A DNA stretch of 54,260 nucleotides from an uncultured Flavobacteriales bacterium. Its GTDB lineage: Bacteria; Bacteroidota; Bacteroidia; Flavobacteriales_D; Sanyastnellaceae. Below, in pieces: positions 7,099 through 47,666 of this stretch (the stretch's first letter is position 1; each line of letters begins with the position of its first letter). A model generated the notes under the pieces. That model saw only the letters and a program-made list of their open reading frames with translations, had not been told where the DNA came from and did no database searches. Position numbers and translations under genes: made by a program. Where the stretch lies: the NCBI GenBank assembly GCA_937881575.1, contig CALGEI010000149.1, positions 1-54,260 of the forward strand, given 5' to 3'.

Positions 7099-7143
7099 GA
7101 GCGAAAGTTTAAAGGGCGTGAAGGAGCTCGAAATTAGAATATG

Positions 7144-7178
7144 TTGTCTTCTCCTCAGCGGAGGACAACCTATCTTTG
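7144..7178 (+). promoter_or_regulatory. Promoter with a dyad in the spacer, before the HMA lipoprotein gene
   Basis: A perfect -7 box TATCTTTG lies at 7171-7178, 4 nt before the ATG at 7183. A TTG at 7144-7146 lies 24 nt upstream of it. The interval holds an imperfect dyad, TTGTC-TT-CTCC (7144-7154) against GGAGGACAA (7160-7168), that fills the spacer and could be an operator. Start-codon placement suggests a leaderless or nearly leaderless mRNA. Confidence 0.55.
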
Positions 7179-7182
7179 TGAA

Positions 7183-7587
7183 ATGTTCATTTGTCGTTTC
7201 ACTACACCTCGAATACTGGCCCTTTTGGTTGCTAGCAATCTGCTAATGGTAAGCTGCAATGAGTCATGCTCGTATGAACTCACTGAAGTGCATGAAGCGG
7301 GATTGGCGGTGAAGACCACCGCTCGAATTGACGTGACCGGGATGATGTGTGCGCATGCATGCGGCGGGAAGATTAAAAAGGAGTTGTTGGAGGTGCAGGG
7401 CGTTGCGAACGCCATTATTGATTTTGAATTGGACCGGGATATGAATCATGCAGAGGTTGAGTTTGACCCCGCTCAAGTGCATGTGGATCAGTTGGTCGCA
7501 GCTGTGACTGGAATTGCTGATGGGAAACTATATGGTGTAGAAGCCGTCCAACTCACGCATTTTGCCAAAGCTGCAAACCGTCCTTGA
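7183..7587 (+). CDS. Lipoprotein with a heavy-metal-associated (HMA) domain
   Basis: 134 residues. Residues 5-25 form a lipoprotein signal ending in MVSC (C25). Residues about 46-125 are an HMA (ferredoxin-like beta-alpha-beta) domain with metal motif GMMC56-AHA-C60, a CxxxC spacing in place of the usual CxxC, as seen in other Bacteroidota HMA lipoproteins. It probably binds copper(I) outside the cytoplasmic membrane. I chose ATG 7183 because an upstream ATG at 7141 lies before the promoter box. Its 3' end overlaps the heme A synthase gene by 26 nt, so the two are coupled. A role in copper supply to cytochrome oxidase is inferred from this neighbour only. Confidence 0.8.
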   Translation: MFICRFTTPRILALLVASNLLMVSCNESCSYELTEVHEAGLAVKTTARIDVTGMMCAHACGGKIKKELLEVQGVANAIIDFELDRDMNHAEVEFDPAQVHVDQLVAAVTGIADGKLYGVEAVQLTHFAKAANRP

Positions 7588-10237: not shown

Positions 10238-11467
10238 TTACGATTGGCGCAACTGATCCAAAACGGCCTGACGCGCCAATTTCATCGGTACGCCGACGTA
10301 TTTCTTTTCCATATAGCCCACGATGCGGTCAATCAATTCGCGGGTTTCGTCATCCAATCGGGACAAGTCTTGAGCGAAAATTTCACCCAATGCTGTTTCG
10401 CGAATCGCGGAGATCGTTGCTGGCAGTTCGCGCATGGACAGTTCCACCTGCCGCTGTTGCAAACGGTCCCGGTATTGCTGCATTGCTTCCTGAATGTGTA
10501 CTTCGCATCCGGCGATTGCAGATTTGCGTACAGCAAGGTTGGCATCGATTTGCTCGTGCAACACGGTTAAGTCTACAACCGATGTTTCCGGCCGCATGCG
10601 AAATGCAGCACCGGTGTCTGCAGGAAGACCCAGGTCAAGGACATGCAGTGCGCCTGGCGGCAGGAATCGCGCTTCTTCCCCATCGAGAAGAGGCTCCGTG
10701 CTGCTCGTGCAAATCACGATGGCTTGAGGACCACTTTCTAAGTGTTTCTGCAATGCATCGAGCTGATCCCATTCCCAATGGAATTCTGCCGCCAATTGCT
10801 GTGCCGCCAAATCCGTTCGGTTGAGGACCGTTACTTTTTGGTAACCCGATTCATGCATGAATCGCGCAACATTCCGGTTGGTTTGACCGGCACCAATCAT
10901 CAAAATAGGAGCATTCTTGTCGAGCTTCCAATGCTCCATGCAATGCCAACCCAATGAATTGACAGAGACAGGTTTTGAGCCTATCGCCGTCTCAGTAAAA
11001 ATGCGTTTGGCTGTTTCGACCAACAAACGCCCGGTGATTCTGAGGTGATCTCCAGCGATGCGCATTGCTGTGCTGCAGTCGAAGGCTTCGCGCAGTTGGG
11101 TGATGATTTCACGTTCACCTAAAACCATGGACTCCAAGCCACAAGCCACCCGAAACAGGTGAGTCATGGCGTCTTCTCCTCGATAGCTTTTGATGGCTGT
11201 GGTAACTTGGCCTAGTTGTTTTCCATCCAGATGGAAAGCCTGCAACAACCGGTGCAGACGACCGGTACAGAAATAGGTCTCGTCTGAGAATATGAACTCC
11301 ACTCGATTGCATGTGGACAGATAGACTAGACCATCCAGTTCTAAAGCGGCCTTCCAATTAGCGAGTTGGGTTTGCTTGCAATCAGTGTCCAAATGCAAGG
11401 CGCCGATGAGTTCCAATGGAGCAGATCGAAAATCCAAAGACAGCACTTGAAGTGAAGATGGCTTCAT
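10238..11467 (-). CDS. hemA: Glutamyl-tRNA reductase
   Basis: 409 residues from ATG 11467; upstream in-frame ATGs are rejected because they run back through the nrdA terminator. First step of C5-pathway 5-aminolevulinate synthesis, reducing glutamyl-tRNA to glutamate-1-semialdehyde with NADPH. The catalytic Cys is C53 in STCNRVEF. Other family features are LGEREIITQLREAF, the Rossmann segment MIGAGQTNRNVARF, and a C-terminal helical dimerisation domain ending in LRQS. The partner aminomutase hemL is at 26601. A near-consensus -7 box, CACCTTTG (11479-11472), lies 4 nt before the ATG. Confidence 0.96.
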   Translation of the reverse strand: MKPSSLQVLSLDFRSAPLELIGALHLDTDCKQTQLANWKAALELDGLVYLSTCNRVEFIFSDETYFCTGRLHRLLQAFHLDGKQLGQVTTAIKSYRGEDAMTHLFRVACGLESMVLGEREIITQLREAFDCSTAMRIAGDHLRITGRLLVETAKRIFTETAIGSKPVSVNSLGWHCMEHWKLDKNAPILMIGAGQTNRNVARFMHESGYQKVTVLNRTDLAAQQLAAEFHWEWDQLDALQKHLESGPQAIVICTSSTEPLLDGEEARFLPPGALHVLDLGLPADTGAAFRMRPETSVVDLTVLHEQIDANLAVRKSAIAGCEVHIQEAMQQYRDRLQQRQVELSMRELPATISAIRETALGEIFAQDLSRLDDETRELIDRIVGYMEKKYVGVPMKLARQAVLDQLRQS

Positions 11468-11471
11468 GATG

Positions 11472-11479
11472 CAAAGGTG
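11472..11479 (-). promoter_or_regulatory. Near-consensus -7 box before hemA
   Basis: The minus strand reads CACCTTTG followed by 4 nt and the hemA ATG. It differs from TAnnTTTG at the first base only. No clear TTG is found 19-22 nt upstream, so this is a weaker call than the rplU promoter. The spacing matches the secA and HMA lipoprotein boxes. Confidence 0.4.
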
Positions 11480-15365: not shown

Positions 15366-15597
15366 AATGAGAGGGAGTTGTTAACACGGGCAGAAATGCA
15401 TAGGCGCTAAGTAAGTGTAAATCAACGATTAGAGGTCATTTTTTGATGCGTTGGGGATAACTGATAAGTGAAATTTGATCGTTTTTATGGCACGATTTTG
15501 TAAGGGTGGCTTTTGTTGAAATCGGCATTCAATGACTCCACGGGGACTTCAGAGGATTGGATGACAAATTGTACGCTGTCAGACTGCGATGAGTCCG

Positions 15598-15605
15598 TAC
15601 TTTTG
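15598..15605 (+). promoter_or_regulatory. -7 promoter box of secA
   Basis: A perfect TAnnTTTG (TACTTTTG) ends 4 nt before the secA ATG at 15610. A TTG at 15569-15571 lies 26 nt upstream, slightly longer than usual. If transcription starts 4-5 nt after the box, the secA mRNA would be leaderless. Confidence 0.55.
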
Positions 15606-15609
15606 TGCC

Positions 15610-18600
15610 ATGCTGAAAAAGCTTTTGAAGAAATTAATCGGTGATAAGGCCGAGGGCGATATGAAGGATATTCGTCCAGTTGTGGATGCGGTGCATGCCG
15701 TTGAAGCGGAATTGCAAGCGTTGACTGACGATGCTTTGCGGGGCAAGACGGCCACATTGAAAATGCGCATAGCTGAACGTACGTCGGCTCAAACGCAAGA
15801 GTCGAATGCCTTGCGTGAAAAGGCAGCTGCAATGGGAGAATCCGACCTAGAGGCCAAGGAGGCGGTTTATGAAGCGTTGGACGCATTGGAAAAGCAAATC
15901 AATGTCTCAATAGAAGAAAGTCTAGAAGAAATCATGCCGGAGGCCTTTGCGATTGTGAAGGAAACAGCGCGACGGCTTTCCGAGAATCATCAACTGGATG
16001 TGGAGGCGACAGATTGGGATCGCGACATCGCTGCGCGAAGAAGCGGGGTCCAGATAGAAGGTGATCGCGCGATTTGGAGTAACAAATGGATGGCGGCAGG
16101 TGCAGAAATTGAATGGAACATGATCCATTATGATGTGCAGCTTGTTGGAGGTGCGGCTTTGCACCGAGGCAAGGTGGCGGAAATGCAAACAGGGGAGGGT
16201 AAAACGTTGGTGGCAACATTGCCGATGTTCCTCAACGCTCTTCCAGGAAAAGGGGTGCATTTGGTTACAGTTAACGACTACTTAGCACGTCGAGATTCCG
16301 AATGGATGGCTCCTATTTTTGAGTTTCATGGCATACGAGTCGACTGCATCGACAAGCACCAACCCAACAGTGAACAAAGGAGGGAGGCCTATCGCGCGGA
16401 CATCACCTATGGAACCAACAATGAATTCGGCTTTGATTATCTCCGAGATAATATGGCCCAACGACCGGAGCAATTGGTCCAACGCAAGCACCATTATGGC
16501 ATCGTCGACGAGGTGGATTCGGTTCTGATTGATGAGGCACGAACTCCATTGATCATTAGTGGCCCGACCCCCAAGGGCGACCAACAGGAATTTGATGCCT
16601 TGAAGCCCAAGGTGGTTCAATTGGTGGGAATCCAACAAAAAGCGGCACAAGGGTTTTTGGCGGACGCCAAGCGCTTGCTCGGAAAGGACGGCGCGACGAA
16701 GGATGAGATTGCAGAAGGAGGATTGGCCTTGTTTCGTGCCTACCGAGCGTTGCCAAAATCCAAGCCTCTGATTAAAATGCTCAGCGGGGAAGGGATGAAG
16801 CAGCAGCTGCTGAAAACGGAAGGGATTTATCTGCAGGACAACAAACGGGAGATGCCCAAAGCGGATGAGCAATTGTATTTCGTTATCGACGAAAAGCAAA
16901 ACCAAGTGGAACTCACTGAGCTTGGGATTGAGTATCTCACGTCGAATATGGAGGACGACCAGTTCTTCACGATGCCAGATTTAGCGACTGAGTTGGTGAC
17001 AATAGACAACGGTCCTGAAAGCGACGAGATCAAGCTCGAGATGAAGAGCAAGTTGATGTCCAACTATGACATCAAAAGTGCCCGTGTGCATACCATGAAC
17101 CAGTTGCTAAAGGCCTATGCACTGTTTGAAAAGGATGTCGATTATGTTTTGATGGACAACAAGGTGAAGATTGTCGATGAGCAGACAGGTCGGATCATGG
17201 ACGGACGTCGCTACTCCGATGGCCTGCACCAGGCGATCGAGGCGAAGGAGAGCGTGAAGATTGAAGCGGCCACCCAGACGTATGCGACGGTCACCTTGCA
17301 GAACTATTTCCGCATGTACCACAAGCTATCGGGCATGACAGGCACAGCGGAAACCGAAGCAGGAGAATTGTGGGACATCTACGCACTTGACGTGATGGGC
17401 ATCCCAACGAACCGGCCCATTGCACGGGATGACCGAGAGGATTTGGTTTACAAAACGAAGCGCGAAAAGTACAATGCCATCATCGATGATGTGGTGACCT
17501 TGCGGGATGCTGGACGGCCCATTTTGGTAGGAACGACCACCGTGGAAGTGAGTGAGTTGCTATCACGTATGTTGGACATTCGACAGATCAAACACCAGGT
17601 GTTGAACGCCAAACTACACCAACGCGAAGCGGAGATTGTCAGTGAAGCGGGAAAGCCTGGGACAGTGACGATTGCAACGAACATGGCCGGGCGAGGTACG
17701 GACATTAAGCTGACCGACGATACCAAGGCATCGGGTGGTTTGGCGATCATTGGAACAGAGCGACATGATAGTCGGCGAGTGGATCGTCAGTTGCGTGGAC
17801 GAGCCGGTCGTCAAGGCGATCCGGGATCCTCTCAGTTTTACGTTTCGTTGGAAGACGACTTGATGCGGTTGTTCTCTTCAGATCGCGTGTCTAAAATGAT
17901 GGACCGCATGGGGCATCAGGATGGCGATGTGATTCAGCACTCCATGATCACGAAATCCATCGAACGGGCGCAGAAGAAGGTTGAGGAAAACAATTTTGGT
18001 GTCCGCAAGCGGTTGCTGGAATATGACGATGTGATGAATGCGCAACGTGAAGTCATCTACAAGCGACGTCGACATGCCTTGCACGGTGACCGCATTCGAA
18101 CGGACATCGCGAACATGTTCTTTGAGTTGGTCGAATCAGCCGTTATGGCCTATCAGCCGGAGAAGGAATATGAAGGTTTCCGGTTGTCTTTGTTGCGCGA
18201 CTTTGGCATCGAACCTCCAGTGGATGAGTCCGGTTTTGCGACAGGCAACGCGGAAGAAATTGCATACCAAACGTACCAAAGTGCAGAGTCTGTATACCGC
18301 ATGAAGTTGAAGGACTTGGCAGAGCGTGCTCATCCAGTCATCCAACGGGTGCAGGATGATCCGGCCAATGATTTCAAACAGATTTTGGTTCCATTTACGG
18401 ATGGACGCAAGACCATTCAAGTCTCCGCTGACATTGAACAAAGTGTCCTTTCAGAAGGCGTGAGCGTCATGGAGGGACTGGAGAAAGCGGTGGTTTTGGC
18501 CATCATTGATCAGTATTGGAAAGAACATTTGAGGAACATGGATGATTTGAGGTCCAATGTCCAATTGGCGCGATTCGAGCAAAAAGATCCGCTGTTGATC

Positions 18601-18963
18601 TACAAGTTTGAGTCGTACGAATTGTTCAAAGGCATGGTTCAACGAATGAATGCAGAAGTCGCCTCTTTCTTGCTCAAGTGTACGATTCCGACAGGCCCTG
18701 GTCAACAGGCAGTCAAACAGGCTCCAATCGCTCGCCCGTTGGCACCAGGAAGAATGGATATTTCAAAGGAGGGAGTTCAAAACATTCAGCAACAGGCCAT
18801 GGCTGCAGCGCGTCAAAACGCCGCTCGCCAAGGCGGTCAGACCGGAATGCCGCCACCACCACCTCGGAAAACAGAACCAATCCGAACGGAAAAGAAGGTG
18901 CTTCCGAATGAACCCTGCCCATGTGGTTCGGGCAAGAAGTTCAAGAAGTGTCACGGCGCTTGA
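15610..18963 (+). CDS. secA: Protein translocase ATPase SecA
   Basis: 1117 residues from ATG 15610 (MLKKLLKKLIGDK); a start 21 nt earlier would lie upstream of the promoter box. It drives export of unfolded precursors through SecYEG. Visible features are Walker A TGEGKT (G195-T199), DEVDSVLIDEARTP with the DEAD-like box, the TNMAGRGTDIKL helicase motif, and GRAGRQGDPGSSQFY. The preprotein-binding region carries an extra segment of about 60-80 residues near 330-410, common in Bacteroidota SecA and the reason for the large size. The C-terminus has a SEC-C zinc motif (CPCGSGKKFKKCHG) for lipid and SecB contact. It is a single gene facing the DUF72 gene. Confidence 0.98.
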   Translation: MLKKLLKKLIGDKAEGDMKDIRPVVDAVHAVEAELQALTDDALRGKTATLKMRIAERTSAQTQESNALREKAAAMGESDLEAKEAVYEALDALEKQINVSIEESLEEIMPEAFAIVKETARRLSENHQLDVEATDWDRDIAARRSGVQIEGDRAIWSNKWMAAGAEIEWNMIHYDVQLVGGAALHRGKVAEMQTGEGKTLVATLPMFLNALPGKGVHLVTVNDYLARRDSEWMAPIFEFHGIRVDCIDKHQPNSEQRREAYRADITYGTNNEFGFDYLRDNMAQRPEQLVQRKHHYGIVDEVDSVLIDEARTPLIISGPTPKGDQQEFDALKPKVVQLVGIQQKAAQGFLADAKRLLGKDGATKDEIAEGGLALFRAYRALPKSKPLIKMLSGEGMKQQLLKTEGIYLQDNKREMPKADEQLYFVIDEKQNQVELTELGIEYLTSNMEDDQFFTMPDLATELVTIDNGPESDEIKLEMKSKLMSNYDIKSARVHTMNQLLKAYALFEKDVDYVLMDNKVKIVDEQTGRIMDGRRYSDGLHQAIEAKESVKIEAATQTYATVTLQNYFRMYHKLSGMTGTAETEAGELWDIYALDVMGIPTNRPIARDDREDLVYKTKREKYNAIIDDVVTLRDAGRPILVGTTTVEVSELLSRMLDIRQIKHQVLNAKLHQREAEIVSEAGKPGTVTIATNMAGRGTDIKLTDDTKASGGLAIIGTERHDSRRVDRQLRGRAGRQGDPGSSQFYVSLEDDLMRLFSSDRVSKMMDRMGHQDGDVIQHSMITKSIERAQKKVEENNFGVRKRLLEYDDVMNAQREVIYKRRRHALHGDRIRTDIANMFFELVESAVMAYQPEKEYEGFRLSLLRDFGIEPPVDESGFATGNAEEIAYQTYQSAESVYRMKLKDLAERAHPVIQRVQDDPANDFKQILVPFTDGRKTIQVSADIEQSVLSEGVSVMEGLEKAVVLAIIDQYWKEHLRNMDDLRSNVQLARFEQKDPLLIYKFESYELFKGMVQRMNAEVASFLLKCTIPTGPGQQAVKQAPIARPLAPGRMDISKEGVQNIQQQAMAAARQNAARQGGQTGMPPPPPRKTEPIRTEKKVLPNEPCPCGSGKKFKKCHGA

Positions 18964-19003: not shown

Positions 19004-19912
19004 TTAAAAGAGGGTTTGCGCGGAGTCCATAAGTTGGGGTGACCGACAGGATAATTGACTGACCTGCTTGAGGTGATGTGCGAACTGAATGCATGTATGC
19101 GGTGTCAGGACACTATCGGGCTCGTGCACCAAAAAGTCAAAGGACTCAAGGCCGCTCGCTTTCCATTGGTTGATCCACTGAACCCACCGCAGAATACGGG
19201 TCTCATCCAAAGGGTGTCCTTCATATCCTCCAAACCGAACGATCACATGAGGTGCCGTGATGCGCATGTGCAAGGCGTCTCGTCGACCAGCGGTGTCTGA
19301 GATGACTGCGCCAATCCCGCGATCTTTCAAGAGTTGCCAAATGGCTAAAGATTCGGGGGTGTCCTCAAACCATTCGGGGTGACGAAACTCGATGGCTATC
19401 TTCAATTCTTCCGGCCATTTTTCCAGGTATTCGACCAAATGTGCAGCATGCTTGGGAGCGTAATGCGGTGGGAGTTGTATGAAACTCGTGCCCAATCGGC
19501 TCCCCAAGGCTAAGATCCCATCGATGAAGTCATCCGTCGGTCCCTCGCATCGGTTGAAACGTCGGTAATGGGAAATGATTTGTGGAAATTTGGGGCAAAA
19601 GCGAAAGTCTTCCGGCATGGATTCGGCCCATTCAGCCATTTTTACCGGCGGGTATATCCGGTAATGGGTGGCGTTGAATTCAAGACTCGAGAACTGCTTA
19701 CCATACCATTCAGGCCAGGTGCGTTGAACGGCTTTCTCTGGATAAACTGTGCCGCGCCAAGGCCGAATGGTCCACATCGTTCCTCCGGATCGGACGGTCG
19801 TCGGAGCCGATTGACCAAGGGGGTCAAGCACGCAAAAACGTTCGTCGACAGCGGGCAGCTGAAAGAAATCGGGGCTGCAGTGATCGATGGAAGGTAGTTT
19901 CCCGAATTTCAT
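19004..19912 (-). CDS. DUF72-family protein
   Basis: 302 residues from ATG 19912. The DUF72 signature is visible: EFNATHYRIYPP, FRFCPKFPQIISH, GTSFIQLPPHYAP, AIEFRHPEWF, and VIVRFGGYEG. The family has a TIM-barrel-like fold and no settled biochemical function. I chose the start from the promoter: a perfect minus-strand box TAAATTTG (19928-19921) lies 8 nt before this ATG, so longer versions beginning at 19942 or 19957 would start upstream of the transcript. It converges with secA, 40 nt apart, with no obvious terminator. Confidence 0.9.
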   Translation of the reverse strand: MKFGKLPSIDHCSPDFFQLPAVDERFCVLDPLGQSAPTTVRSGGTMWTIRPWRGTVYPEKAVQRTWPEWYGKQFSSLEFNATHYRIYPPVKMAEWAESMPEDFRFCPKFPQIISHYRRFNRCEGPTDDFIDGILALGSRLGTSFIQLPPHYAPKHAAHLVEYLEKWPEELKIAIEFRHPEWFEDTPESLAIWQLLKDRGIGAVISDTAGRRDALHMRITAPHVIVRFGGYEGHPLDETRILRWVQWINQWKASGLESFDFLVHEPDSVLTPHTCIQFAHHLKQVSQLSCRSPQLMDSAQTLF

Positions 19913-20683: not shown

Positions 20684-20691
20684 TATCTTTG
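20684..20691 (+). promoter_or_regulatory. -7 promoter box of msrC
   Basis: A perfect TATCTTTG ends 5 nt before the ATG at 20697. No TTG at ideal spacing is seen upstream. The position suggests a nearly leaderless transcript. Confidence 0.5.
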
Positions 20692-20696
20692 ACCCG

Positions 20697-21197
20697 ATGA
20701 TTCTCTCGTCCAATCACCCGGAGGCTGACAACCGAAAGGACCTATTCAAGACCTTGACTCCGCAATGGATTGCTCTGTTGGAGGGTGAAGTCAATCGTAC
20801 GTCCAATTTGGCCAATCTAGCTGCGGCAATTTATGGAGCGTTTGAGTGGCATTGGGTCGGCTTTTATGAAGTCGATGAGCGACGGGACGAGCTCGTTCTG
20901 GGGCCTTTTCAGGGCCCAGTGGCGTGCACACGCCTGCGCCATGGAAAGGGTGTCTGCGCAGCGGCATGGGACACTATGGAGGCTCAGGTCGTAGACGATG
21001 TGCACGCCTTCCCGGGTCACATTGCATGCAGCGCGCTCTCGGTGTCCGAATTGGTGCTTCCCATCATTGTTGACGGCCATGTTGTGGCCGTTTTGGATAT
21101 TGATTCTGCGAAAGCTGCGGATTTTTCAACGGCGGATGTCAAAGGCTTTGACCGTATTGTAAATTATGTAGCTTCACGATGGAATCATTGGGAATGA
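20697..21197 (+). CDS. msrC: Free methionine-(R)-sulfoxide reductase (GAF domain)
   Basis: 166 residues, one GAF domain. All three cysteines of the fRMsr/YebR family are present: C77 (GPVAC), C87 (GKGVC) and C111 (HIAC), the last being the probable catalytic residue. Other conserved parts are HWVGFYEVD and LVLPIIVDG. It reduces free methionine-R-sulfoxide in the cytoplasm during oxidative stress. The stop codon overlaps the next start in ATGA (21194-21197), which couples it to a lipoprotein gene with no obvious functional link. Confidence 0.93.
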   Translation: MILSSNHPEADNRKDLFKTLTPQWIALLEGEVNRTSNLANLAAAIYGAFEWHWVGFYEVDERRDELVLGPFQGPVACTRLRHGKGVCAAAWDTMEAQVVDDVHAFPGHIACSALSVSELVLPIIVDGHVVAVLDIDSAKAADFSTADVKGFDRIVNYVASRWNHWE

Positions 21198-28900: not shown

Positions 28901-28908
28901 TACATTTG
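28901..28908 (+). promoter_or_regulatory. -7 promoter box of gcvP
   Basis: A perfect TACATTTG lies 21 nt before the gcvP ATG. A second near-match, CAAGTTTG (28918-28925), ends 4 nt before the ATG. The upstream box is the better match; no TTG at 19-22 nt spacing is visible for either. No glycine-riboswitch-like structure is apparent in the short leader. Confidence 0.45.
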
Positions 28909-28929
28909 TACCCTTAACAAGTTTGTGCT

Positions 28930-31853: not shown

Positions 31854-31861
31854 TATATTTG
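31854..31861 (+). promoter_or_regulatory. -7 promoter box before the first tandem T9SS cargo gene
   Basis: A perfect TATATTTG lies 30 nt before the ATG at 31892. No good TTG is found 19-22 nt upstream. The short A/T-rich leader (acaacctaacacacc) has no Shine-Dalgarno. Confidence 0.45.
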
Positions 31862-36095: not shown

Positions 36096-36144
36096 CATGG
36101 ACCACAGACGGTGGACTCAGAGCGACAGGCAGTAAATTCGCAGC

Positions 36145-37653
36145 ATGTCGCTGAAATCGATCTTGAGCCAACCGTTAGCACGGCGCATTGCGAAGCGGGA
36201 GAATCGTCGAGCAATGGATGGCGCTTCCAAGCAGTTGGCTGTTTTGAAAGCGTTGCTCAGAAAAGGGCAGCACTCGATTTTCGGTCAAGACCATGGATTG
36301 AATCCAGCGATGACCACGAGGGAGTTTCGAAAGGCGGTGCCTGTTCGAGATTACGAGGCGCTCAAACCGTGGATCGATCGTTCCGTTGCTGGTGAAAGCG
36401 ATGTTTTGTGGCCTGGCAAACCCTTGTATTTCTGCAAGACCAGCGGTACAACCAGCGGAGCGAAGTACATCCCCTTGACACGCGATAGCATGCCGAATCA
36501 CATCGGTTCTGCGCGCAATGCCTTGCTGGCTTACATCGCAGAGACCGGGAAGTCGGAGTTCTTAGAAGGCAAGATGATTTTCCTTCAGGGTTCACCGGAG
36601 TTGACGAAGACGAGCGGGGGGATTCCCATGGGACGATTGAGTGGGATTGTAGCGCATCACGTGCCGAGCTATTTACAGGCCAACCGACTCCCTTCATTCG
36701 AGGCCAACTGCATCGAGCCTTGGGAAGCGAAGATCGAGGCCATTGTGGAAGAAACGCGGAATCAGGACTTGCGTTTGATCAGTGGAATTCCTTCGTGGGT
36801 GCAGAATTACTTCGAGCGACTTTTGTTGGCAACCGGGGCGAAAACGGTTCGGGAGGTCTTCCCCAACTTCGAGTTGTTCGTTTATGGTGGAGTAGCGATT
36901 GAACCGTACCGCGCCAAGTTTCGCGAGTTGATCGGTGCGGACGTGCCAACGATTGAGTTGTTCCCGGCTTCGGAGGGCTTTTTTGCTTATCAAGACCGTA
37001 CGGATGTGGAGGGACTTCGACTGAACGTGGATGATGGGATGTTCTTCGAATTCATTGCGGTGGACACCTATTTTGATGAAGAACCGGAACGCTTGGGTCT
37101 TGATGAGGTGGAGCTGGGCGTGCAATATGCCTTGATCATTTCAAGCAATGCGGGATTGTGGGGATATGATATTGGCGACACCATCAAGTTCGTTTCCACC
37201 GACCCCCATCGCATTGTTGTCACTGGACGCATTAAGCATTTCACCAGTGCGTTCGGAGAACACGTCATTGCTGAAGAAGTAGAAGGGGCGCTCAACGATG
37301 CGATGCAGCAGATGGGTGGACTTGTCACGGAATTTCACGTTGCACCGCAAGTCAATCCTCCGTCTGGCTTGCCGTATCACGAGTGGTTCATCGAGTTTTC
37401 GGAGCAACCCCAGGATGCTTTGGGTTTTGCAAAGTCCATCGACCAGTCGATGATCGCACGCAATCCGTATTACAAGGATTTGATTTCCGGAGGCGTTTTA
37501 CGTCCTGCAATCGTAACACTGGTGAACACGGGAGGGTTCCACAGTGCGATGGAATCTTTGGGGCGTTTAGGAGGTCAAAATAAGCCCCCCCGTTTGGCCA
37601 ATGATAGAAATTTTTCCGACTCTATCTTATTACAAGAAACTTCAAAGACATGA
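36145..37653 (+). CDS. GH3-like acyl-adenylating enzyme
   Basis: 502 residues. It matches the GH3 family, known in plants for conjugating auxin or jasmonate to amino acids and found in many Bacteroidota with unknown substrate. The ATP-binding motif is S100-GTTSGAK107 within FCKTSGTTSGAKYIPLT. Further family segments are ISGIPSWVQNYFERLL, ELFPASEGFFAYQ, YDIGDTIKF and the C-terminal-domain start VTGRIKHFTSAFGEHV. It probably forms an acyl-AMP and transfers the acyl group to an amine. It overlaps the uridine kinase gene in ATGA and begins a tight run of four genes. Confidence 0.9.
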   Translation: MSLKSILSQPLARRIAKRENRRAMDGASKQLAVLKALLRKGQHSIFGQDHGLNPAMTTREFRKAVPVRDYEALKPWIDRSVAGESDVLWPGKPLYFCKTSGTTSGAKYIPLTRDSMPNHIGSARNALLAYIAETGKSEFLEGKMIFLQGSPELTKTSGGIPMGRLSGIVAHHVPSYLQANRLPSFEANCIEPWEAKIEAIVEETRNQDLRLISGIPSWVQNYFERLLLATGAKTVREVFPNFELFVYGGVAIEPYRAKFRELIGADVPTIELFPASEGFFAYQDRTDVEGLRLNVDDGMFFEFIAVDTYFDEEPERLGLDEVELGVQYALIISSNAGLWGYDIGDTIKFVSTDPHRIVVTGRIKHFTSAFGEHVIAEEVEGALNDAMQQMGGLVTEFHVAPQVNPPSGLPYHEWFIEFSEQPQDALGFAKSIDQSMIARNPYYKDLISGGVLRPAIVTLVNTGGFHSAMESLGRLGGQNKPPRLANDRNFSDSILLQETSKT

Positions 37654-47658: not shown

Positions 47659-47666
47659 TATCTTTG
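47659..47666 (+). promoter_or_regulatory. -7 promoter box of the acyl-CoA dehydrogenase gene
   Basis: A perfect TATCTTTG lies 28 nt before the ATG at 47695. No TTG is present at the expected distance. It gives a normal short leader. Confidence 0.5.

Follow-up and report, generated by a model that had tools for sequence, protein, structure and literature searches.

Several genes in the stretch of DNA analysed here (54,260 nt, hereafter the window) have a match to the −7 promoter box of the Bacteroidota, TAnnTTTG, ending only 4 or 5 nt before the start codon. The question raised by this locus is whether such boxes are promoters of leaderless genes, and how far the arrangement extends beyond the window. 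The Bacteroidota translate largely without Shine–Dalgarno sequences, and leaderless mRNAs are a small class in the published maps of the phylum, but here they may be a main mode.

Boxes and genes in the window

The initial annotation described five genes, for an HMA-domain lipoprotein, secA, msrC, hemA and gcvP, as probably leaderless, and all five boxes were found at the positions and with the spacing that it gave (Table 1). The boxes carry the six fixed bases TAnnTTTG, those of hemA and gcvP reading CAnnTTTG. With 16 perfect boxes in the window and 19.7 expected, the number of boxes is not above expectation, so it is their placement and not their number that is unusual. Genes were called with a home-made hexamer caller, which gave 37 in the window; one further window gene has a perfect box at a gap of 8 nt from an upstream ATG at 19912.

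Table 1. Boxes and genes discussed in the text, in window coordinates.
Feature	Position	Strand	Remarks
−7 box TATCTTTG, HMA-domain lipoprotein gene	7171..7178	+	4 nt to ATG 7183
HMA-domain lipoprotein gene, predicted leaderless	7183..7587	+	Pfam HMA PF00403, residues 49–110
hemA (glutamyl-tRNA reductase), predicted leaderless	10238..11467	−	TIGR01035
Near-consensus box CACCTTTG of hemA (CAnnTTTG)	11472..11479	−	4 nt to ATG 11467
−7 box TACTTTTG of secA	15598..15605	+	4 nt to ATG 15610; box and N4 kept in L021–L024
secA, predicted leaderless	15610..18963	+	NF009536 SecA, residue 2 on model position 3
−7 box TATCTTTG, msrC-like GAF-domain gene	20684..20691	+	5 nt to ATG 20697
msrC-like GAF-domain gene, predicted to have no leader or one of ~1 nt	20697..21197	+	Pfam GAF_2/GAF
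Perfect box TACATTTG, likelier gcvP promoter (leadered)	28901..28908	+	gap 21 to ATG 28930
Near-box CAAGTTTG by gcvP	28918..28925	+	4 nt to ATG 28930
Leadered perfect box, contrast class	31854..31861	+	gap 30 to ATG 31892
Near-consensus box TAAATTCG	36133..36140	+	4 nt to ATG 36145; one mismatch; absent from the initial annotation
GH3-family, OlsH-like gene, possibly leaderless	ATG 36145	+	near-box at gap 4
Leadered perfect box, contrast class, acyl-CoA dehydrogenase-like gene	47659..47666	+	gap 28 to ATG 47695

The HMA gene, secA and hemA each have more than one in-frame start. For the HMA gene an alternative is the in-frame ATG at 7141, and the gene caller chose 7288 rather than 7183; the N-terminus MFICRFTTPRILALLVASNLLMVSC reads as lipobox-like, and the single homologue found (in L023, the protein being 49% identical) also has TATCTTTG-N4-ATG. 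For secA there is an upstream in-frame ATG at 15589, and no ATG stands at the equivalent place in L021–L024. The hemA product narrowly misses the cut-off of its family model (199.1 bits, E = 1.1e-58, cut-off 209.55 bits), and CAnnTTTG-N4-ATG is found at hemA in all four same-genus homologues with 69–81% identity. As a separate matter, hemA loci of the genus are of two kinds (L102–L105 and L111–L116): among 15 other genomes of the genus, four have a copy that is 69–81% identical, six have only one of 23–26% identity and five gave no match, which suggests hemA replacement.

The msrC-like gene owes its name to the initial annotation, and a search of NCBIfam gave no match for it. In seven homologous loci a perfect box lies at a gap of 4–6 nt in five and at gaps of 28 and 12 nt in the others. 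The L023 homologue starts with GTG at a gap of 4 nt from a perfect box, a rare non-ATG instance of the geometry. The leaderless reading of this gene is thus favoured by conservation (the five loci, one of them with GTG), but not by the genome-wide behaviour of the N5 class to which it belongs (see below).

For gcvP the leaderless reading was abandoned. A perfect box lies at a gap of 21 nt, and the three homologues (L022, L024 and L028) have perfect boxes at gaps of 19, 36 and 18 nt, with nothing box-like at gap 4. Because of its own perfect box and these leadered homologues, the near-box at the gcvP ATG is not likely to be the promoter.

Distance between box and start codon across the genome

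A peak in the distance from box to start codon had been set beforehand as a test of the leaderless reading. We counted four distances (N4, N5, N9 and N20) throughout the genome that holds the window (2.59 Mb in 213 contigs, 99% complete, 51% GC), and only N4 stands out: TAnnTTTG-N4-ATG occurs 79 times (45 + 34 by strand) vs 17 for the reversed pattern. The other distances are near background on the same control, with 19 vs 13 for N5, 24 vs 15 for N9 and 17 vs 9 for N20. The expected peak is therefore present at N4, but does not extend to N5 as had been proposed, and N5 was rejected as a general class.

The placement can also be measured on called genes, with eight permuted motifs providing the expectation. 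The sample comprised 436 kb with 342 called genes; its stretches C187, C156 and C44 (60 kb) were picked around N4 hits, and C42 and C199 were cut just after one. Of these genes, 17 carry a perfect box 3–6 nt from a candidate ATG, compared with 0.9 expected (12 of them in C42 and C199, three in C44 and two in the window). A perfect box at a gap of 7–100 nt is found for 42 other genes, with 12.6 expected. Boxes with one mismatch also peak at gap 4 (25 vs approximately 3 expected), and 21 of these 25 have a C at −1; the same base precedes the ATG at 66 of 79 N4 sites, compared with 184 of 448 coding-best ATG starts in the pooled sample. The changes tolerated in the family pool are mostly TAnnTTCG, TAnnTTTA and TAnnTTGG; at gap 4 the form with one mismatch that occurs most often is TAnnTTCG, with 15 cases. 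When perfect and one-mismatch boxes are taken together, 42 of the 342 sampled genes have the geometry and approximately 4 would be expected by chance, a count that includes the rejected gcvP and, because of the home-made gene caller (which did not start HMA at 7183), excludes the HMA gene and the gene at 36145.

These numbers decide the simplest objection, namely that a degenerate six-base motif falls near start codons by chance. In its favour are the unremarkable number of boxes in the window (16 vs 19.7) and the fact that the window was chosen after the fact. However, 77 of the 79 N4 matches lie outside the window, the whole-genome control is 17 (Poisson p ~2e-26), and the geometry is conserved across species. 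We regard the probability of the chance reading as practically negligible: the N4 count and the conservation in homologues already refute it, and the claim in the initial annotation that the placement exceeds chance holds both for the called genes (17 vs 0.9) and for the whole genome (79 vs 17).

In two places on other contigs of the same genome, copies of TAnnTTTG-N4-ATG on opposite strands stand back to back, with the ATGs ~50 bp apart (C55:19924-19977 and C58:1760-1815). If both members of each pair are genes, these would be very compact divergent promoters.

Genes with the geometry and their start codons

The 17 perfect-box genes are secA, the msrC-like GAF gene, lpd, a gene for a MacB/FtsX-type permease, prfB, a polyprenyl-diphosphate-synthase-like gene, lptB, clpP, panD, ssb, trxB, a cysteine-synthase-like gene, galE, lpxD and three without an NCBIfam match. 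Among these, secA, ssb and lpxD are essential in model bacteria. The product of prfB (release factor 2; L004:3433-4533, which is C42:63433-64533), a gene with a gap-6 box, aligns with its family over residues 8–356 in a single frame, so that no programmed frameshift seems needed.

Leaderless initiation prefers AUG over GUG or UUG. The start codon of the anchored genes is ATG in 49 cases (2.8 expected), GTG in two (0.6 expected) and TTG in four (1.8 expected).

Because starts were chosen by a home-made caller, and several in-frame starts are available in the HMA gene, secA and hemA, it might be supposed that the start codons are misassigned and that the true ones lie downstream, behind ordinary leaders. 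We consider this highly improbable. Profile alignments begin at residue 1–9 in panD, ssb, secA, lpd, galE, lpxD and trxB, so that for those seven genes the true start is unlikely to lie much further downstream. In addition, homologues retain the ATG that follows the box, and it is ATG, rather than GTG or TTG, to which the boxes are anchored. Starts further downstream in the proteins had been named at the outset as a result that would speak against leaderless genes; for the best genes they are unlikely both from the profiles and from the retention of box and spacing (69–96% identity).

Promoter features of the boxes

Published work on Flavobacterium johnsoniae describes a box of the form TAHHTTTG and many promoters with 4 or 5 nt from box to transcription start (PMC6847099), and bases outside the six that define our search can be compared with this form. 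At box position 4, G is found in none of 48 leaderless boxes, vs 30 of 136 coding-internal boxes (p = 6e-5) and 10 of 97 leadered boxes (p = 0.03). Directly after the box it is found in 4 of 48, vs 39 of 136 coding-internal (p = 0.005) and 7 of 97 leadered boxes, and the difference at position 3 (3 of 48 vs 23 of 136 coding-internal) is non-significant (p = 0.09). The leaderless boxes carry promoter features independent of the search motif, in that they avoid G as does TAHHTTTG of F. johnsoniae, although the difference between leaderless and leadered boxes at position 4 counts somewhat against the likeness of the two classes.

In a search for the −33 TTTG element upstream of the boxes, no position reached 6% in either class. 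Six of 97 leadered boxes are preceded by a TTG at a distance of 22 nt, a weak hint; it is absent from the 48 leaderless ones, and a −33 element upstream of leaderless boxes, none being seen among the 48, was rejected. The element appears to be optional, because in F. johnsoniae it is likewise described as much less evident (PMC6847099).

The distances in the family pool are separated by a valley, with 49 boxes at gaps of 3–6 nt, 10 at 7–12 and 25 at 13–18. A second perfect box at a gap of 13–100 nt is found for 1 of 49 leaderless-type genes vs 90 of 655 others (p = 0.014), the count covering perfect boxes and leaving room for imperfect promoters.

These observations also bear on the possibility that the box is no promoter but a translational element, Kozak-like or in contact with the ribosome, of mRNAs with leaders. 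Initiation in F. johnsoniae depends on bases near the start codon (PMC6847099), and C before ATG is common anyway in these genomes (184 of 448). However, the boxes share with the leadered promoters all six fixed bases and a similar avoidance of G, leadered genes are A-rich at −13 to −10 instead, and another perfect box from which a leadered mRNA could start is seen upstream in only 1 of 49 genes. We consider a purely translational role quite unlikely, and keep to the reading of the boxes as promoters.

Conservation in homologues

For secA, hemA, panD, lpd and lptB the box and its spacing are conserved in homologues, and the DNA upstream is not. In 52 homologues (4, 4, 15, 14 and 15 respectively; msrC and HMA were left out of this count), the fixed box bases are as in the window's genome at 303 of 312 positions, compared with 128 of 208 in the spacer and 569 of 1404 in the upstream region from −13 to −39, where a shift of 0 or 1 nt chosen by the best box match (8 panD and 2 lptB rows) favours the box slightly. 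The box of lptB is less constant (83 of 90) than those of the other four genes, for which the values are 220 of 222 for the box, 93 of 148 for the spacer and 448 of 999 upstream.

All 16 panD loci of the genus, our own included, have a perfect box, at gap 4 in eight and at gap 5 in eight, so an exact +1 and a 1 nt leader are indistinguishable by sequence; beyond f1, the family of the window's genome, panD has a perfect box at gap 4–6 in three of six other families of the order. For lpd, the gap-4 box is present in 15 of 15 same-genus loci (13 perfect, 2 with one mismatch) and a perfect one in none of seven outgroup loci, three of which have perfect leadered boxes at gaps of 16–28 nt. For lptB, a box at gap 4–5 is present in 16 of 16 same-genus loci (9 perfect, 7 with one mismatch), and a perfect gap-4 box in one of eight outgroup loci.

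The secA loci are the best 80 of at least 595 Bacteroidota matches, and 76 of the 80 were readable. Of these 76, only the four nearest (L021–L024) place a perfect box at gap 4 before the ATG; in 49 the perfect box stands at another distance, and in 23 there is none within 80 nt. In L025–L027 secA is leadered, with gaps of 42, 32 and 54 nt. Read most simply, these loci point to a change of secA from leadered to leaderless within the group around the window's genome. Since secA, lpd and lptB have leaderless-type arrangements here and leadered or other ones in related genomes, the switch should be traceable gene by gene. The leaderless-type secA of L021–L024 and the leadered secA of L025–L027 are a natural pair for studying the change of mode, and lpd, with the box at the ATG in the genus and without it in the seven outgroup loci, is a second.

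Distribution among lineages

We denote the other families of the order as f2 and f51–f60. L021–L025 and L027 are labelled Flavobacteriales in their records and L026 Crocinitomicaceae; judged by equal pattern counts, L023 probably belongs to f1 and L025–L027 to other genera of f1.

The N4 excess over the control was counted in 70 whole genomes of the order. It is high in this genus (65.8 per genome, n = 4), the rest of f1 (57.7, n = 11), f2 (81.1, n = 15), f58 (71.3, n = 3) and f59 (61.0, n = 1), and lower in f53 (31.3, n = 7), f52 (23.5, n = 15), f51 (21.0, n = 1), f55 (18.0, n = 1), f57 (14.7, n = 3), f54 (10.5, n = 2), f60 (8.3, n = 6) and f56 (−6.0, n = 1). At N20 the excess per genome is 6.2 in this genus, 7.2 in the rest of f1, 23.0 in f2, 0.7 in f58 and 27.0 in f59. 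Across the phylum, a table of 296 genomes shows a weaker N4 excess for many Bacteroidia and, outside that class, for at least one family (f24); by eye, f17 and f23 have little or none in the same table. In f24 the excess is strongest in three of the nine listed genomes (G172, 28 vs 4; G195, 38 vs 6; G203, 56 vs 8), and this family is possibly an independent rise of leaderless genes. The family- and order-wide counts involved no selection by N4 count.

We also estimated the leaderless share of perfect-box promoters, as the excess over permuted motifs, in sampled sequence; G023, G357, G101, G213, G369, G373 and G374 were sampled after their N4 counts had been seen. In f1 the share is 0.35 in the window's genome, 0.44 in G023, 0.61 in G357 and 0.40 in the nearest loci. 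Elsewhere in the order it is 0.37 in G101, from another family, and 0.05 in G388. Of the 80 secA loci, 64 entered pools for this estimate and 16 were left out. The share is 0.06 in 36 mostly Bacteroidales loci (two of them labelled only Bacteroidia or Bacteroidetes), 0.00 in Bacteroides neonati, 0.10 in 11 Cytophagales, Sphingobacteriales and Chitinophagales loci (a loosely named pool that includes Flavitalea) and 0.10 in the other 15 left-out loci. For 12 loci labelled Flavobacteriales it is 0.42, and with L025–L027 out and L054 in (10 loci) it is 0.31; as the pool keeps this share without the probable f1 loci, the trait is not confined to f1. Some samples were small (60 kb or 3 of 10 stretches for G213, 140 kb or 7 of 10 stretches for G373, 102 kb for G369). 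The share is about zero in the small samples of Pedobacter, Flavitalea and G213, but whole-genome N4 counts are 193 vs 86 in Pedobacter and 118 vs 29 in Flavitalea, and because of this excess the shares for these two are uncertain.

The distribution has to be weighed against a more modest reading, that we are seeing the small leaderless class already known in the Bacteroidota, its share appearing high where leadered promoters have drifted off consensus at 51% GC. The N4 excess in many Bacteroidia, such as that of Pedobacter, agrees with this, as does the fact that the shares were computed from perfect boxes only. On the other hand, the N4 excess differs among families of one order (57.7–81.1 vs 8.3–31.3), and at the same 42% GC the share is 0.44 in G023 of f1 vs 0.00 in Bacteroides neonati. 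Nor is the result peculiar to perfect boxes, since those with one mismatch have an excess of 24 at gaps of 3–6 nt vs 34 at 13–60. We consider this reading unlikely. The leaderless arrangement is apparently far commoner in f1 and its relatives than in the Bacteroidota studied so far, and it is likely that in f1, f2, f58 and f59 at least one third of primary promoters lie directly before start codons, with leaderless initiation as a main route of expression.

Proposed mechanism

The observations to be explained are the geometry itself, its excess over controls, the sharpness of N4, the codon specificity, the promoter-like features, the conservation and the uneven spread over lineages. We propose that promoters of the primary sigma factor adjoin start codons and give leaderless mRNAs, as a major and conserved mode in f1 and some other families of the order, and put the probability of this at roughly 0.88. 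A −7 box of the sigma-ABfr type would sit at −12 to −5 from the A of the start codon. Given the spacing from box to transcription start in Flavobacterium, a gap of 4 nt predicts that the A of the ATG is +1, and RNA polymerase would start the transcript on this A, mostly with a C before it. Judging from the geometry, the mRNAs of the N4 genes would thus very probably have the start codon at their 5′ end and lack a leader. Ribosomes would recognise the 5′-terminal AUG of such an mRNA rather than a leader, and the arrangement may be beneficial. Genes with ordinary leaders, their boxes at least 13 nt upstream, would form a second class beside it. The N4 peak, the starts and the conservation support the leaderless reading that was first proposed for the box-N4-ATG genes, with the exception of gcvP.

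If this is true, leaderless initiation would be a main route in a phylum known for leadered initiation free of Shine–Dalgarno sequences. The main new point would be the scale and the uneven lineage spread of the leaderless geometry. A practical consequence would be a start-finding rule for gene callers on such genomes, TAnnTTTG-N3-C-ATG.

Comparison with known systems

Leaderless genes have been reported in the phylum before, so the idea as such is not new. Zheng et al. (2011) find many atypical genes in Bacteroidetes (PMC3160421). A survey published in 2024 connects leaderless mRNA with certain Flavobacteriia that lack the CCUCC core in their 16S (PMC10783764), and in a follow-up of GeneMarkS-2 the FCB group is handled as one with AT-rich non-canonical sites (PMC9581028). 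A literature search covering titles and the beginnings of abstracts, mostly outside subscription papers and without preprints, gave among the matches listed no report of a box-based, lineage-resolved excess. In the transcription start maps of other Bacteroidota 3.7–5.5% and at most 13% are leaderless; in F. johnsoniae, for example, leaders longer than 10 nt make up 87% (PMC6847099). Because these maps find leaderless mRNAs to be rare, the lineage difference described here is one of sequence.

The boxes agree with the sigma-ABfr promoter (TAnnTTTG or TAHHTTTG) in their six fixed bases, in the avoidance of G and in the 4 nt to the predicted transcription start. They differ in that this start would be the A of the start codon in approximately one eighth of the sampled genes (42 of 342), and in that no −33 TTTG is seen. 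The TA-led genes of Actinobacteria and Deinococcus-Thermus are similar in having a box at a fixed short distance in many genes, but there the box is that of another sigma factor (PMC3160421). A further comparison is with the leaderless mRNAs of Flavobacterium psychrophilum, where the box lies at −12 to −5 (PMC9723704), and of Bacteroides thetaiotaomicron (PMC7366714), which share the promoter box and the phylum with the genes described here. Specifically, RNA mapping gives 5.5% of 890 CDSs as leaderless in the former and 5′ UTRs shorter than 10 nt in ~3.7% of cases in the latter, whereas in f1 we estimate, from sequence only, a leaderless share of 35–61% of perfect-box promoters.
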